NCBI RefSeq assembly: GCF_017643475.1
Contig: NZ_JAEPNI010000001.1
Location: forward strand, 1,054,001 to 1,118,000
Length of the DNA stretch: 64,000 nt
Reading direction: 5' to 3'
Origin: Maricaulis sp.
GTDB taxonomy: Bacteria > Pseudomonadota > Alphaproteobacteria > Caulobacterales > Maricaulaceae
The notes below the pieces were generated by a model. The model had not been told where the DNA came from, made no database searches, and was given only the letters and a program-made list of their open reading frames with translations. Positions 40,666-43,961 of this stretch are shown piece by piece. The stretch's first letter is position 1; each line of letters opens with the position of its first letter. Position numbers and translations under genes: made by a program.

Positions 40666-41844
40666 TCAGACCGGTTCAGCCAGACCGAATGCGAACAGGC
40701 GGCCAATGGTCGCCTGTTGGTCTTTGGAGTCCAGGTCGGCGAACGTCTCCAGGCTGATTTCACCACCATCCAGCAGGGTGTGCAGGCCCGGCTCGGCCTT
40801 GGCCGGGAAACGGATCTCTCCACCCGAGGTGATAATCACGATCTCCTCGCCATCCTCGGCCATGCGCCAGGGCGTATTGGCCTTCAGGCGGTAGCGTTTG
40901 GACGGGTCTGTTGGTGTCTGGAAATTGGCAATCGTGCCTTCCGTGGCCGGTAGGCGTGACTGGATGAAATTGTCCACATAGATATGGAAGGCTTCGTCCA
41001 GATCCGCTTCCTTGGCAAAGGTCGAGACCAGGCTTTTAAAGTGCGGACGCACGCTTTCCATGTCGAAATCCGGACGCGCGAAACCAACAGGCAGGGACTG
41101 GCGGAATTCCGGGTGGCGCAGGGCGACTTCGGAAATCACTTCCAGCATCAGATCGGCCCAGGTCTTTACAATTAGGCCCACCGTGATGTGCAGGGAGGCC
41201 TCGTCACCATGTGTCAGCGCATCATGCATCAGCCCGCGCGGTACGTAGGCGCAATCGCCGGCTTCCAGAACAAATTCCTCGACCGGATCGCCAATCTCGT
41301 GTTCGCCGCTGCGGAAACCCTCACCCCGGAAGGGTTTGTCGACCGGCGTGTTATAGAGGCGCCAGGATTTGGAGCCGGAGACCTGCAGGACAAACACATC
41401 ATGGTCGTCATAATGTGTCTTGAAGCCCTGCGCGTCCGGCGGGGTGAGATAGATGTTCGTTTGCACATGGCAGGACAGGTGCGATTCCATGGCCCGACAG
41501 AAATCTGCCAGGGTGGCGTCAACCTCATGCAGTTGTGGCAGGATCAGCGTTGCGCCCTGCTGAAACTGGCGGGCGACGCCGCCGCGGTCAATGGCGCCGG
41601 AGTTGAACGTATAGTCTTCGCGGTTCACCGGCGGATCTGCGCGGGTCATGTCCAGTGAGCCAGGTTGGAAATTGATGCTGGAGACCAGTTCATCAATCCG
41701 CTCGATTGACAACAGATCGCGGTACCGGTTTCCGTCCTTGTGTTTGCTCACCAGCGCCTTGCGCTCATGGTATTGCGCAAAGAACTCCTCCGCAGAGACC
41801 GGATCGAACAGATAGCCGAAAACGTCCTTGGCCCAGGGTTTCAT
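40666..41844 (-). CDS. Cupin_4/JmjC-domain 2-oxoglutarate oxygenase
   Basis: The 392-residue product is a bacterial relative of the ribosomal oxygenases YcfD and NO66/MINA53, Fe(II)/2-oxoglutarate enzymes that hydroxylate protein side chains. The iron triad is visible as His144-x-Asp146 in FKTHYDDHDVF and His207 in YVPRGLMHDAL. A lysine in SGSKSWRLYNTP is the likely 2-oxoglutarate ligand. The HYDDHDVF form is closer to NO66/MINA53 than to YcfD. The C-terminal third would be the dimerisation and winged-helix parts. GGGGGAGTG precedes the ATG. It lies just downstream of a three-gene repeat array on the same strand, with a terminator between. Its target may be a ribosomal protein or those repeats. 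Confidence 0.88.
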   Translation of the reverse strand: MKPWAKDVFGYLFDPVSAEEFFAQYHERKALVSKHKDGNRYRDLLSIERIDELVSSINFQPGSLDMTRADPPVNREDYTFNSGAIDRGGVARQFQQGATLILPQLHEVDATLADFCRAMESHLSCHVQTNIYLTPPDAQGFKTHYDDHDVFVLQVSGSKSWRLYNTPVDKPFRGEGFRSGEHEIGDPVEEFVLEAGDCAYVPRGLMHDALTHGDEASLHITVGLIVKTWADLMLEVISEVALRHPEFRQSLPVGFARPDFDMESVRPHFKSLVSTFAKEADLDEAFHIYVDNFIQSRLPATEGTIANFQTPTDPSKRYRLKANTPWRMAEDGEEIVIITSGGEIRFPAKAEPGLHTLLDGGEISLETFADLDSKDQQATIGRLFAFGLAEPV

Positions 41845-41903
41845 GGATTCACTCCCCCATTTTCAATACCGGCATCTAAGCGTGGAAATCGATTTTGCGC
41901 ACG

Positions 41904-41940
41904 AAAAAAAGCTTCGCGACAGATCGTCGCGAAGCCTTGT
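41904..41940. terminator. Terminator after the repeat-protein array
   Basis: GCTTCGCGAC at 41911-41920 pairs perfectly with GTCGCGAAGC at 41926-41935, loop AGATC. On the minus strand a run of seven T follows (the A-run at 41904-41910), so this ends the leftward array before the cupin gene. Ts on the other side make it partly bidirectional. Confidence 0.88.
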
Positions 41941-41959
41941 TTTTACAGTTGATACGGGG

Positions 41960-42577
41960 TCAGCAGCGACCGCGTCCCACCGGGTCTGCATAGCTGCCAG
42001 TATCGCTGTCGGTACAGCCGCGCCCGCGGCCATTTCCGGCACGGTCGGCATAGGTTCCGCTGTCACTGTCAGTGATGCCGGTGCGATGGCCGCCGCGGCC
42101 ATTACCCGCGGGATCTGCATAGGAACCGCTATCGCTGTCCGTGATGCCCGAGCCGCCCCGTCCATTGCCTGCCGGGTCCGCATAGGAGCCACTGTCGCTG
42201 TCGGTAACGCCGGAACGACGGCCACCACGACCATTGCCTGCCGGGTCTGCGTAGGACCCGCTGTCGCTGTCGGTAACACCGGAACCACCGCGGCCATTGC
42301 CAGCCGGGTCGGCATAGGCGCCTGAATCGGCATCAGTGATGCCGGAACGATAACCGCCTCGGCCGCGACCGACCGGGTCTGCATAGGCGCCGGCATCGCC
42401 GTCTGTCACGCCACGTGATCCAGGTCCCCGGCCTCCGCCAATCGGATCGAACGGGTCTGCGTCCGTGTAGCCTGTTGTCGCGCAGGCGCTGACGACGCTG
42501 CCAGCACCCAGAGTTAGGGACCCGCCCGCTACGCGCACCAGAAAGGAGCGGCGAGAGATCTTTCCACGTTTAGCCAT
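41960..42577 (-). CDS. Twin-arginine exported Asp/Gly/Arg repeat protein, paralogue 1 (lipobox type)
   Basis: I recognise no named family. The ATG at 42577 (GGAGACAGG upstream) gives 205 residues. Residues 1-33 form a Tat leader (MAKRGKISRRSFLVRVAGGS) with a lipobox-like VVSAC ending at Cys32, so a Tat-exported lipoprotein is likely. From residue 56 the chain is about seven repeats alternating between 21 and 23 residues, consensus GITDSDSGSYADPAGNGRGG with an added (R/H)RS/T linker in every second unit. The final unit is CTDSDTGSYADPVGRGRC, framed by two cysteines. The D-x-D-x-G spacing is like calcium-binding repeats. It is the last of three tandem paralogues; a strong terminator follows. 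Confidence 0.8.
   Translation of the reverse strand: MAKRGKISRRSFLVRVAGGSLTLGAGSVVSACATTGYTDADPFDPIGGGRGPGSRGVTDGDAGAYADPVGRGRGGYRSGITDADSGAYADPAGNGRGGSGVTDSDSGSYADPAGNGRGGRRSGVTDSDSGSYADPAGNGRGGSGITDSDSGSYADPAGNGRGGHRTGITDSDSGTYADRAGNGRGRGCTDSDTGSYADPVGRGRC
41963..42412 (-). repeat. Coding tandem repeat, 63/69-base units
   Basis: About seven degenerate units encode the T-D-S-D-x-G...A-D-P-x-G-x-G-R-G repeat of paralogue 1. Units alternate in length between 63 and 69 bases, suggesting that a two-unit block was duplicated. Confidence 0.8.
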
Positions 42578-42598
42578 TACCTGTCTCCACAAATGAGA

Positions 42599-42626
42599 AC
42601 GGACTCCCGGCGGGCCGGAAGTCCGT
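42599..42626. other. Hairpin between paralogues 2 and 1
   Basis: ACGGACT-CCGGC and GCCGG-AGTCCGT arms pair with one mismatch around a short loop. On the minus strand only TTCTCATTTG follows, so this is a weak terminator or attenuator that could let part of the transcription reach paralogue 1. Confidence 0.5.
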
Positions 42627-42641
42627 CATCAACCCAAAGGT

Positions 42642-43226
42642 CTAGTAGCGGCGCGAACGTCCGCGACCAGCCGGGTCGGCACAGCCGCCCGTATCACTGT
42701 CTGTCGTGCCTGGCTGTACGTGACCGCGCCCACGGCCGCCCGGATCGGAACAGGAACCGCTGTCGCTGTCCGTTGACGAACCGCGGCCATTGCCGGCGGG
42801 GTCACTCGGATCGCTGTCCGTGACCCCGGAGCGTCCACGGCCATTGCCGACCGGGTCACTGGGGTCACTGTCGGTGAGGCCGGTGCGACCGCGGCCATTG
42901 CCTGCCGGATCGCTTGGGTCACTGTCAGTTAGGCCGGAACGTCCACGACCATTGCCCGCCGGATCGCTGGGATCGCTGTCGGTCAGGCCTGAACGGCCGC
43001 GACCATAACCGGCGCGATCGCTGCCGCCACCTGTATCACTGTCCGTCATTCCCGTGCGGCCATATCCGGAACGGTCGGCATAAGTACCACCGTCACTGTC
43101 CGTGCGGCCGGTATAGTTCTGCGCCAGGCTACCACCGGTAACCAGGCCAACCGCACCGGTCGCCGCGACACCACCAGCCACGCTGGTCATGAAGGAACGG
43201 CGGCTGAGCTTGCCTTTTTTAGCCAT
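42642..43226 (-). CDS. Twin-arginine exported Asp/Gly/Arg repeat protein, paralogue 2
   Basis: A 194-residue paralogue of its neighbours, with GGAG seven bases before the ATG. The Tat leader (MAKKGKLSRRSFMTSVAGG) ends in GGSLA-Q, a likely signal-peptidase I site near residue 35, so it should be soluble in the periplasm or secreted. The body has eight repeat units. The four central ones (residues 80-151) are 18-residue near-perfect copies of GLTDSDPSDPAGNGRGRS, shorter than the units of paralogue 1. The last two units carry Cys (SCSDPGGRGRG and GGCADPAGRGRS). No catalytic domain is present. It lies between two paralogues, each separated by hairpins. Confidence 0.8.
   Translation of the reverse strand: MAKKGKLSRRSFMTSVAGGVAATGAVGLVTGGSLAQNYTGRTDSDGGTYADRSGYGRTGMTDSDTGGGSDRAGYGRGRSGLTDSDPSDPAGNGRGRSGLTDSDPSDPAGNGRGRTGLTDSDPSDPVGNGRGRSGVTDSDPSDPAGNGRGSSTDSDSGSCSDPGGRGRGHVQPGTTDSDTGGCADPAGRGRSRRY
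42774..42989 (-). repeat. Coding tandem repeat, four 54-base units
   Basis: Four near-identical 54-base units encode residues 80-151 of paralogue 2. Identity between neighbouring units is higher than with the units at either end, which points to recent expansion by slippage or unequal exchange. Confidence 0.85.
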
Positions 43227-43248
43227 GTCTTGCTCCCAATTTAGCTAG

Positions 43249-43266
43249 CGGGCCACAGCGGGCCCG
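43249..43266. other. Hairpin in the leader of paralogue 2
   Basis: CGGGCC at 43249-43254 pairs with GGCCCG at 43261-43266 around ACAGCG. It lies 20-40 bases before the paralogue 2 start on the minus strand and could affect mRNA stability or translation. Confidence 0.45.
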
Positions 43267-43285
43267 TTGTCCCCCGCAAGATACG

Positions 43286-43313
43286 AAAAAGGGGCGGTTG
43301 TGCAGGCCGCCCC
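43286..43313 (-). terminator. Rho-independent terminator after paralogue 3
   Basis: GGGGCGG at 43291-43297 and CCGCCCC at 43307-43313 form a stem. On the minus strand it is followed directly by TTTTTCG. It lies 16 bases after the stop of paralogue 3, so paralogue 2 needs readthrough or its own promoter. Confidence 0.8.
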
Positions 43314-43329
43314 TTGGAATTGAACCCGA

Positions 43330-43662
43330 CTATGCCGGGCCGCGACCGCGACCACCCGGATCGCTGCAGGCGCCGCCATCACTGTCGGTGTAGCCGGTAT
43401 TGCCGCGGCCATAGCCGGACGTGTCGGCGCAAGCACCACCATCGCTGTCGGTGACACCGGTGTAGCTGGAGCCGTGGTTTGCGTAGTCATTCGGATCGCT
43501 GTCCGTGATGCCGGTGCGAGCTGCAGCATCAACCGGATCTGCATCGACGGAACGCTGAAGCATCGTCGCGCCCGCAACTGCAGCAACAGTGCCGGTAACA
43601 ACCGTGCCGCCTGCAACGCGGGTCAGGAATGAGCGACGGCTCATTTTGCCCTTTTTAGCCAT
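43330..43662 (-). CDS. Twin-arginine exported Asp/Gly/Arg repeat protein, paralogue 3
   Basis: The promoter-proximal and shortest paralogue, 110 residues from the ATG at 43662 (GGAG upstream; the frame is open to 43710). The Tat leader (MAKKGKMSRRSFLTRVAGG, then a hydrophobic VVTGTVAAVAGATML) is nearly identical to those of the two downstream genes. Only three repeat units follow: GITDSDPNDYANHGSS, GVTDSDGGACADTSGYGRG and GYTDSDGGACSDPGGRGRG, the last two with one Cys each. The cleavage site is unclear. Conserved leader and variable body make the family look like a set of exported scaffolds or modified peptides; the function is unknown. Confidence 0.78.
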   Translation of the reverse strand: MAKKGKMSRRSFLTRVAGGTVVTGTVAAVAGATMLQRSVDADPVDAAARTGITDSDPNDYANHGSSYTGVTDSDGGACADTSGYGRGNTGYTDSDGGACSDPGGRGRGPA

Positions 43663-43961
43663 TTTATAGTCTCCCCAGTAGCCATAAGACCGCCCGACGC
43701 GGTCACGCATATGCTCTGGTCAGAAGACTACGCGCGGCGCGCGAGCAGGGCAAACAAAAGTTCAAGAAAAAATATCAATACAGATCAATCGCTTAACCGG
43801 TGTTTTTGCGAATAATTGTCATGATATTTGCGACTGATTTTCATTGCGCTGTTACCCTTGCGAGAAAATGCCGTTTTAAATCGCCACTTTGCAGAGATTC
43901 TCTGATGTTCACGGCTTGTTCTCTTGTGCGGAGCAGTGTTTAGTCACAACCGGAGGCGCTG
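43663..43961. promoter_or_regulatory. AT-rich divergent regulatory region, repeat array and ruvC
   Basis: The longest non-coding stretch in the window. The half near the array is GC-rich; 43755-43880 is AT-rich and likely holds the promoters. Two 18-base direct repeats (15 of 18 identical, TTTGCGA...TCAT) start at 43805 and 43827, 22 bases apart or two helical turns, as for a dimer pair bound on one face of DNA. CGGAGG at 43951-43956 is the ruvC Shine-Dalgarno. No CtrA site of full consensus was found. Confidence 0.5.

Follow-up and report, generated by a model that had tools for sequence, protein, structure and literature searches.

We conclude that a gene for an Fe(II)- and 2-oxoglutarate (2OG)-dependent oxygenase is paired with genes for exported, aspartate-rich repeat proteins in a 64,000-nucleotide stretch of a Maricaulis sp. 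genome (contig NZ_JAEPNI010000001.1; the whole stretch is called the window below), and that this pairing extends over two bacterial classes. The oxygenase belongs to the JmjC_2 (cupin_4) family, and its repeat-protein neighbours carry leaders of the twin-arginine translocation (Tat) type. The best explanation, which we hold tentatively, is that the oxygenase hydroxylates Asp in the repeat proteins and that the Tat-exported product handles iron. The first-pass annotation of this DNA had proposed that the exported repeat proteins may be substrates of the oxygenase. The conserved pairing described here partly supports that proposal; we infer that the repeats are the substrate, that Asp is the residue and that the product binds iron.

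The oxygenase gene and its repeat-gene neighbours

The oxygenase gene lies 3' of three repeat genes, A to C, on the same strand. The features of the locus are as follows.

43330..43662, minus strand: repeat protein A, 110 aa, with a Tat leader and three TDSD units; no Pfam family above its cut-off
42642..43226, minus strand: repeat protein B, 194 aa, with a Tat leader and eight TDSD units; predicted to be disordered
41960..42577, minus strand: repeat protein C, 205 aa, with a Tat leader, a lipobox-like VSAC and eight units
40666..41844, minus strand: JmjC_2 (cupin_4) oxygenase, Fe(II)/2OG type with an NO66/MINA-like fold, 392 aa; H144, D146, H207 and K159 intact
43807..43821, no strand assigned: Fur-box-like inverted repeat of the 7-1-7 type, some 145-160 bp 5' of gene A
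42598..42627, minus strand: terminator-like hairpin after gene B (consensus match only)
41908..41938, minus strand: terminator-like hairpin in the interval between gene C and the oxygenase gene (consensus match only; present on both strands)

The oxygenase matches Pfam JmjC_2 (PF08007) with E 8.3e-30 and 103.4 bits (cut-off 22). Its iron site (His144, Asp146 and His207), already described as intact in the first-pass annotation, is identical in 106 of 106 aligned relatives. The same is true of K159, which we take to be the 2OG-binding lysine. The overall fold, including the C-terminal domains, is of the NO66/MINA type.

Oxygenase and repeat genes occur together. Repeat genes are present in 37 of the 119 genomes sampled from the family, and a close oxygenase (E < 1e-90) is present in 38. 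The oxygenase adjoins the repeat genes in all 37 repeat-carrying genomes; in the 38th oxygenase genome (G002), the enzyme is at a contig edge. The association is strong by genome (Fisher p = 4e-30) and holds by genus (p = 1.6e-4), and genera g5 and g15 each include a sampled genome that lacks both oxygenase and repeat genes. Co-occurrence across relatives had been named beforehand as the check on the proposed pairing.

The pairing extends well beyond the family. We assembled 142 loci from the family loci, the best 80 of 365 relatives and class-level matches; among the named relatives in that best 80, the closest was a Maricaulis metagenome-assembled genome (MAG) at 94% identity. Removal of 23 duplicates and 12 low scorers left 107 loci above 280 bits, a line chosen after the score gap was visible; among them, L149 and L150 are contigs from a single MAG, and the enzymes of L213 and L227 come from a single genome. 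An adjacent repeat gene is present at 102 of the 107, in both Alpha- and Gammaproteobacteria. Adjacency was scored when an open reading frame (ORF) with at least 3 units (2 units were allowed for L213 and L145) lay no more than 3.5 kb upstream or 1.5 kb downstream. This rule found 99 loci, and three were added by eye (L156, L188 and L197), of which L156 is a looser case with an Asp/Glu-rich partner. The five exceptions are L087 and L162 (each with 41 bp visible upstream), L212 (28 bp visible downstream), L173, whose genome has 10 repeat matches away from the oxygenase locus, and L157, whose genome gave no match when searched with a Gammaproteobacterial repeat protein. Because the composition rule for repeat proteins was passed by only 1 of 9403 other ORFs at the 142 loci, and that one is a further paralogue near the L199 operon, the pairing is not due to chance.

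None of 12 JmjC_2 loci below 180 bits has a repeat gene within flanks of about 1.1-1.5 kb per side. In a tree of 83 enzymes, from which about half of the Alphaproteobacterial entries were left out, these 12 distant JmjC_2 enzymes form a separate branch with 100/100 support. Four intermediate Gammaproteobacterial enzymes score 230-258 bits; downstream of two of them, L259 and L260 (246-258 bits), a Tat peptide with one unit is encoded. As a side observation, the enzyme of L146, titled Dehalococcoidia, groups with that of Gammaproteobacterial L161, and its contig is probably misbinned.

The repeat gene is mostly upstream of the oxygenase gene, with a median gap of 22 bp. L153, L211, L214, L259 and L260 have it downstream, and L201 has it on the opposite strand. 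The first-pass annotation had assigned the oxygenase its own transcript. The terminator-like hairpin between gene C and the oxygenase gene fits this in the window, but the doubt about a shared transcript weakens when other loci are considered: of the 95 whose repeat ORF lies upstream, 51 have a gap of 30 bp or less. Some repeat genes stand apart from the operon: a fourth, distant paralogue is on another contig of this genome (G000:C3:27977-28318), and the rule found a repeat gene at 18 of 21 stray loci in this and related genomes. The oxygenase may thus also act on proteins encoded elsewhere.

The repeat proteins themselves match no Pfam or NCBIfam model above its cut-off and no PHROGs family. 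The three paralogues share the leader MAK(K/R)GK-x-SRRSF, as first described. The earlier counts of three units in A and eight in B also stand, whereas C, first credited with about seven, has eight when TDAD and TDGD are counted. SRRSF, in a motif of the S-R-R-x-F-L type with a hydrophobic stretch, is present in all three window proteins. A Tat pattern matched 148 of 154 repeat ORFs, which had themselves been chosen with a similar motif, and curated TAT models match the window proteins below cut-off only. Unit length varies, with 2 to 5 residues from TDSD to the following Asp in the window proteins (compare TDSDPSDP and TDSDSGSYADP). We considered a folded repeat and rejected it: AlphaFold2 gave repeat protein B a mean predicted local distance difference test score of 39.1 (13-row alignment), a value that fits disorder, although it is weak evidence for a low-complexity sequence. 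The VSAC in C, read by eye, is behind the Tat motif, and the product of gene C is probably a Tat lipoprotein. A lipobox is not a general feature, as a loose rule finds one in 42 of 154 repeat ORFs.

Two further features of the repeat proteins were seen. The window proteins have 2 to 3 Cys each (63 of the 154 repeat ORFs have none), and Cys brackets some units (C-TDSD...GR-C), including the last unit of 41960-42577 in the window and units in the repeat proteins of L089-L102; once exported, such units could each be closed by a disulfide. In distant Alphaproteobacteria (L208, L211, L213, L214 and L227), the leaders have the motif L-[STR]-D-[DE]-[DEQ]-I before the Tat arginines, a possible recognition element for the enzyme.

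The residue likely to be modified

Known targets of JmjC hydroxylation are Asn, Asp, His, Arg and Lys. Judging from conservation, Asp is the single best candidate in the repeat proteins, because it is common to every partner protein found, all of which are Asp-rich, while Arg or His is missing from some. The unit is TDSDSGSYADPAGNGRG in Alphaproteobacteria, SDSDSSDQSGR and GTDSSDQSGGE in Gammaproteobacteria and SDYDPNDPIGG in L213, and the single units of L259 and L260 are TDQDAGESADPKG and SDSDTGASADAAG. At L252, an extra locus outside the 107, a Tat ORF that ends 99 bp upstream of the enzyme has a single TDSSDQS and then an acidic stretch, rich in Asp/Glu/Met, that lacks Arg; this acidic partner resembles that of L156. 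His hydroxylation of the repeats was rejected, as His is absent from 89 of the 154 repeat ORFs.

Two points weigh against Asp as the modified residue: its presence in the 154 rule-picked ORFs follows in part from the selection rule itself, and Arg also occurs in 153 of the 154. A non-circular count of Asp asked only for a Tat motif and an ORF end from -400 to +80 bp of the enzyme start. There is such an ORF at 92 of the 107 loci, and all 92 have at least 11.5% Asp; of the Tat-motif ORFs elsewhere in the same loci, 0 of 5 reach 8%.

The first-pass annotation had listed Asp, Arg and Gly as candidates and stressed Arg and His chemistry. Asp has held up, and the case for Arg has weakened. It is conceivable, though in our view unlikely, that the oxygenase and repeat proteins are indeed enzyme and substrate but that Arg (or Arg together with Asp) is hydroxylated in the GxGRG part of the unit, as by YcfD and JMJD5, and that the product has a role unrelated to iron, for example in a surface coat or a phase-separating layer. 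Wide as the occurrence of Arg is, it is absent after the leader in the L213 and L252 proteins, which led us to reject it as a universal site, and only 2-3 Arg are found in seven others. In Gammaproteobacterial repeats of the GTDSSDQSGGE kind, Arg is limited to positions near the C-terminal end, and the sequence similarity of the oxygenase to YcfD is marginal (E 0.025).

A possible link to iron and a proposed mechanism

Sequences upstream of the repeat genes and, in Gammaproteobacteria, neighbouring genes suggest a connection to iron that goes beyond the first-pass annotation. The Fur pattern TGMNAATNATTNKCA, which was widened (M/K) once GC-rich sites were seen, has one exact match in the window, at 43807-43821, where 0.03 would be expected. 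In the DNA preceding the first repeat gene, 35 of 92 loci (the 92 include both L149 and L150) match 11 or more of the 12 Fur positions, compared with 0.7 expected from shuffles and with 8 of 412 upstreams of other ORFs. A narrower pattern reached the same score in 17 of 92 loci, versus 0.19% of 2069 background windows. By clade, at least 10 of 12 positions are matched in 15 of 19 Maricaulis loci, 8 of 8 from Hyphobacterium genus g8, 14 of 16 from Gammaproteobacteria and 15 of 33 from other Alphaproteobacteria. The Maricaulis genome encodes two FUR-family proteins.

We assigned 21 loci to Gammaproteobacteria by record title and tree. Searches with one or two query proteins for each neighbour, which give lower bounds, found a PepSY_TM gene in the flank of at least 15 of the 21 (with a 4-bp overlap of the enzyme stop in six) and a TonB receptor gene at no fewer than 5. 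At L188, genes of a heme-uptake set (FecCD, periplasmic binding protein, HemS and ABC) run alongside on the opposite strand. Also beside PepSY_TM, in at least 9 of the 21 loci, is a protein family (about 136 aa; e.g., L149:4195-4611, plus strand) that matches nothing in Pfam. In Caulobacter, a PepSY system has been implicated in periplasmic ferric reduction (PMC12004947), and iron import without a known siderophore pathway has been reported (PMC12004943).

We postulate a protein-modification system of two components, in which a cytoplasmic oxygenase with Fe(II), O2 and 2OG would hydroxylate unfolded repeat proteins; the beta-carbon of Asp in [ST]-D-x-D...D-x-x-G units is the most likely site. 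Tat, acting post-translationally, would then export the modified, mostly disordered protein, with some exported copies apparently lipid-anchored and others soluble. The side chain of beta-hydroxy-Asp is an alpha-hydroxycarboxylate, the type of Fe(III) ligand found in siderophores, and a chain of units would therefore be a multivalent iron-binding polymer outside the cytoplasm. The polymer would be made under iron scarcity, and in Gammaproteobacteria reduction or uptake of the iron would fall to the PepSY_TM protein and TonB receptor encoded nearby. In its most specific form, the proposal is of a siderophore protein made on the ribosome. Tat would export it as a disordered chain in which many Asp residues have become beta-hydroxy-Asp, multivalent for Fe(III) and located at the surface or in the periplasm. 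Fur would control its production, and in Gammaproteobacteria a PepSY_TM reductase and a TonB receptor would act with it. We regard this fuller version as possible but doubtful.

Several observations count against this mechanism. Disordered cargo is unusual for Tat, and the closest characterised enzymes act on His, not Asp. Among the intermediate Gammaproteobacterial enzymes, L258 and L261 have no adjoining single-unit Tat peptide. Iron control appears not to be general, because the 15 remaining loci of the family (L088-L102) have no Fur-like site (0 of 15 reach 10 of 12 positions), and this counts against a universal iron role. PepSY_TM was not found at 6 of the 21 Gammaproteobacterial loci (at one of these six, L183, only 367 bp are visible downstream). 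Neighbour clustering found no iron gene next to the Alphaproteobacterial operons, and the PepSY and TonB queries matched in Gammaproteobacteria only; by eye, the Alphaproteobacterial neighbours resemble ruvC, ruvB, transketolase and glucose-6-phosphate isomerase, i.e., they are housekeeping-like, and Pfam identified RuvC and transketolase in the window. IucA/IucC, the one siderophore route searched for, is found in 0 of 119 family genomes, carriers and non-carriers alike, and so does not discriminate. Finally, the system is sparse: enzymes above 280 bits occur in 12 of 385 sampled genomes of the class (the Maricaulis genome included) and in 1 of 369 sampled Gammaproteobacterial genomes, namely the chosen centre, and 15 of 99 genomes of that centre's family have a match at E <= 1e-60.

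A search of the L088-L102 upstreams for other motifs returned chiefly sequence shared at the start of a divergent ruvC. By eye, TTCA-N7-TTCA direct repeats, of a kind resembling response-regulator sites, seem to recur upstream of the repeat gene in several of these loci.

The lack of Fur-like sites at these 15 loci would also fit a scheme in which hydroxylation of Asp yields a product that binds Ca(II) or a different metal, or that receives additional decoration, with the Fur-like control serving something other than iron capture. The pattern D-x-D-x-G-x-x-x-D does look, by eye, like acidic metal-binding loops. We nevertheless consider this scheme improbable, about on a par with Arg hydroxylation. 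The Pfam calcium-binding repeats (TSP3, RTX and EF-hand) are unmatched up to E 1, although profiles can miss short repeats, and the length of the unit is variable. The PepSY_TM, TonB and heme-uptake genes linked to the operon in Gammaproteobacteria point to iron.

Relation to known systems

NO66 (RIOX1) and MINA53 (RIOX2) are ribosomal histidyl hydroxylases, and the oxygenase here is like them in fold. Unlike them, it pairs with a neighbouring repeat gene, and its partners are nearly free of His. NO66 Ser421 and MINA53 Ser257 are described as contacting the substrate His (PMC9994133), and the position of Ser421, placed by alignment, is Gly223 in 106 of 106 oxygenases. Gly is also common to 11 of 12 distant homologues, and we dropped the Ser-to-Gly change as a subfamily marker. 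YcfD (RoxA), a ribosomal arginyl hydroxylase, has a different genomic partner as well as its marginal sequence similarity.

Alternatively, the oxygenase might be an ordinary ribosomal oxygenase whose repeat-gene neighbourhood is historical. The first-pass annotation had raised action only on the ribosome as a caveat, and we think it very improbable. The oxygenase is present in just 38 of the 119 family genomes and is missing jointly with the repeats, adjacency has been maintained over two classes despite differing surroundings, and Gly223 takes the place of the substrate-contacting Ser, though with the reservation given above for distant homologues; the patchy presence, joint absence and conserved adjacency led us to reject this as the principal explanation. 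Still less probable is that the oxygenase is a chaperone-like or structural partner that does not catalyse oxidation. Adjacency alone indicates association and not catalysis, but the constancy of the iron ligands and the 2OG lysine in all 106 relatives suggests that catalysis has been kept.

If the oxygenase does modify the repeat proteins by hydroxylating Asp, the system would have several analogues among ribosomally synthesized and post-translationally modified peptides (RiPPs). Bufferins are described as exported, copper-binding peptides modified by multinuclear nonheme iron-dependent oxidative enzymes (MNIOs) (PMC12452194). Like bufferins and other MNIO-modified RiPPs, the present loci have a ribosomal precursor with an export signal beside an iron-dependent oxygenase and a probable link to metal handling, and some bufferin-type precursors are described as protein-sized. 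The two systems differ in export (Sec in bufferins, Tat here), enzyme (MNIO of the DUF692 family, JmjC_2 here), motif (Cys motifs, Asp repeats here, with 63 of the repeat ORFs free of Cys) and metal (copper, iron as proposed here). MNIO RiPPs are also described as having a partner protein, and none was seen at the loci here. The JmjC protein BipG/BpmG is reported to be an Orn (ornithine) hydroxylase in the biosynthesis of the RiPP biphenomycin (PMC12707348, PMC12257519). It is likewise a JmjC 2OG oxygenase acting on a ribosomal product (hydroxylation being what we propose here), and it differs in modifying one Orn in a short antibiotic precursor within a multi-enzyme cluster. Beta-hydroxy-Asp is itself reported in marine siderophores (PMC6836290), and an MNIO is reported to make it on a RiPP (PMC13060819).

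Two of the intermediate Gammaproteobacterial loci bear on the wider enzyme branch. At L261 (2902-3240, minus strand), an NHLP-leader RiPP precursor (NCBIfam TIGR03793, E 1.1e-24) is encoded near a 230-bit JmjC_2 oxygenase, which suggests that this branch may serve other ribosomal peptides too. At L258 (2506-6125, plus strand), a C39-peptidase ABC exporter and a kinase-domain protein are encoded directly upstream of a 244-bit JmjC_2 oxygenase, a neighbourhood that looks like a peptide-modification locus.

The pairs CciT-CciO and PiuA-PiuC are described as a TonB receptor and a 2OG oxygenase, regulated by Fur in Caulobacter and sometimes near PepSY, with the substrate of the oxygenase given as unknown (PMC12004947, PMC12004943). 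The CciO/PiuC oxygenase is of the PKHD type (PMC3751524), not JmjC_2, and the accessible text of these reports mentions no repeat-protein gene. Among the RiPP, MNIO and CciO-type systems compared, the accessible descriptions include none with a JmjC_2 enzyme and a Tat-exported Asp repeat protein. Nor did we find a description of the oxygenase/repeat pair in family libraries or in the titles and abstract openings of the literature searched, which covered few subscription journals.

The strict gene pairing in two bacterial classes gives the bacterial relatives of NO66 and MINA a candidate substrate that is not ribosomal. If the iron reading is true, a gene-encoded, protein-sized hydroxy-aspartate iron chelator would be added to the known routes of iron capture.

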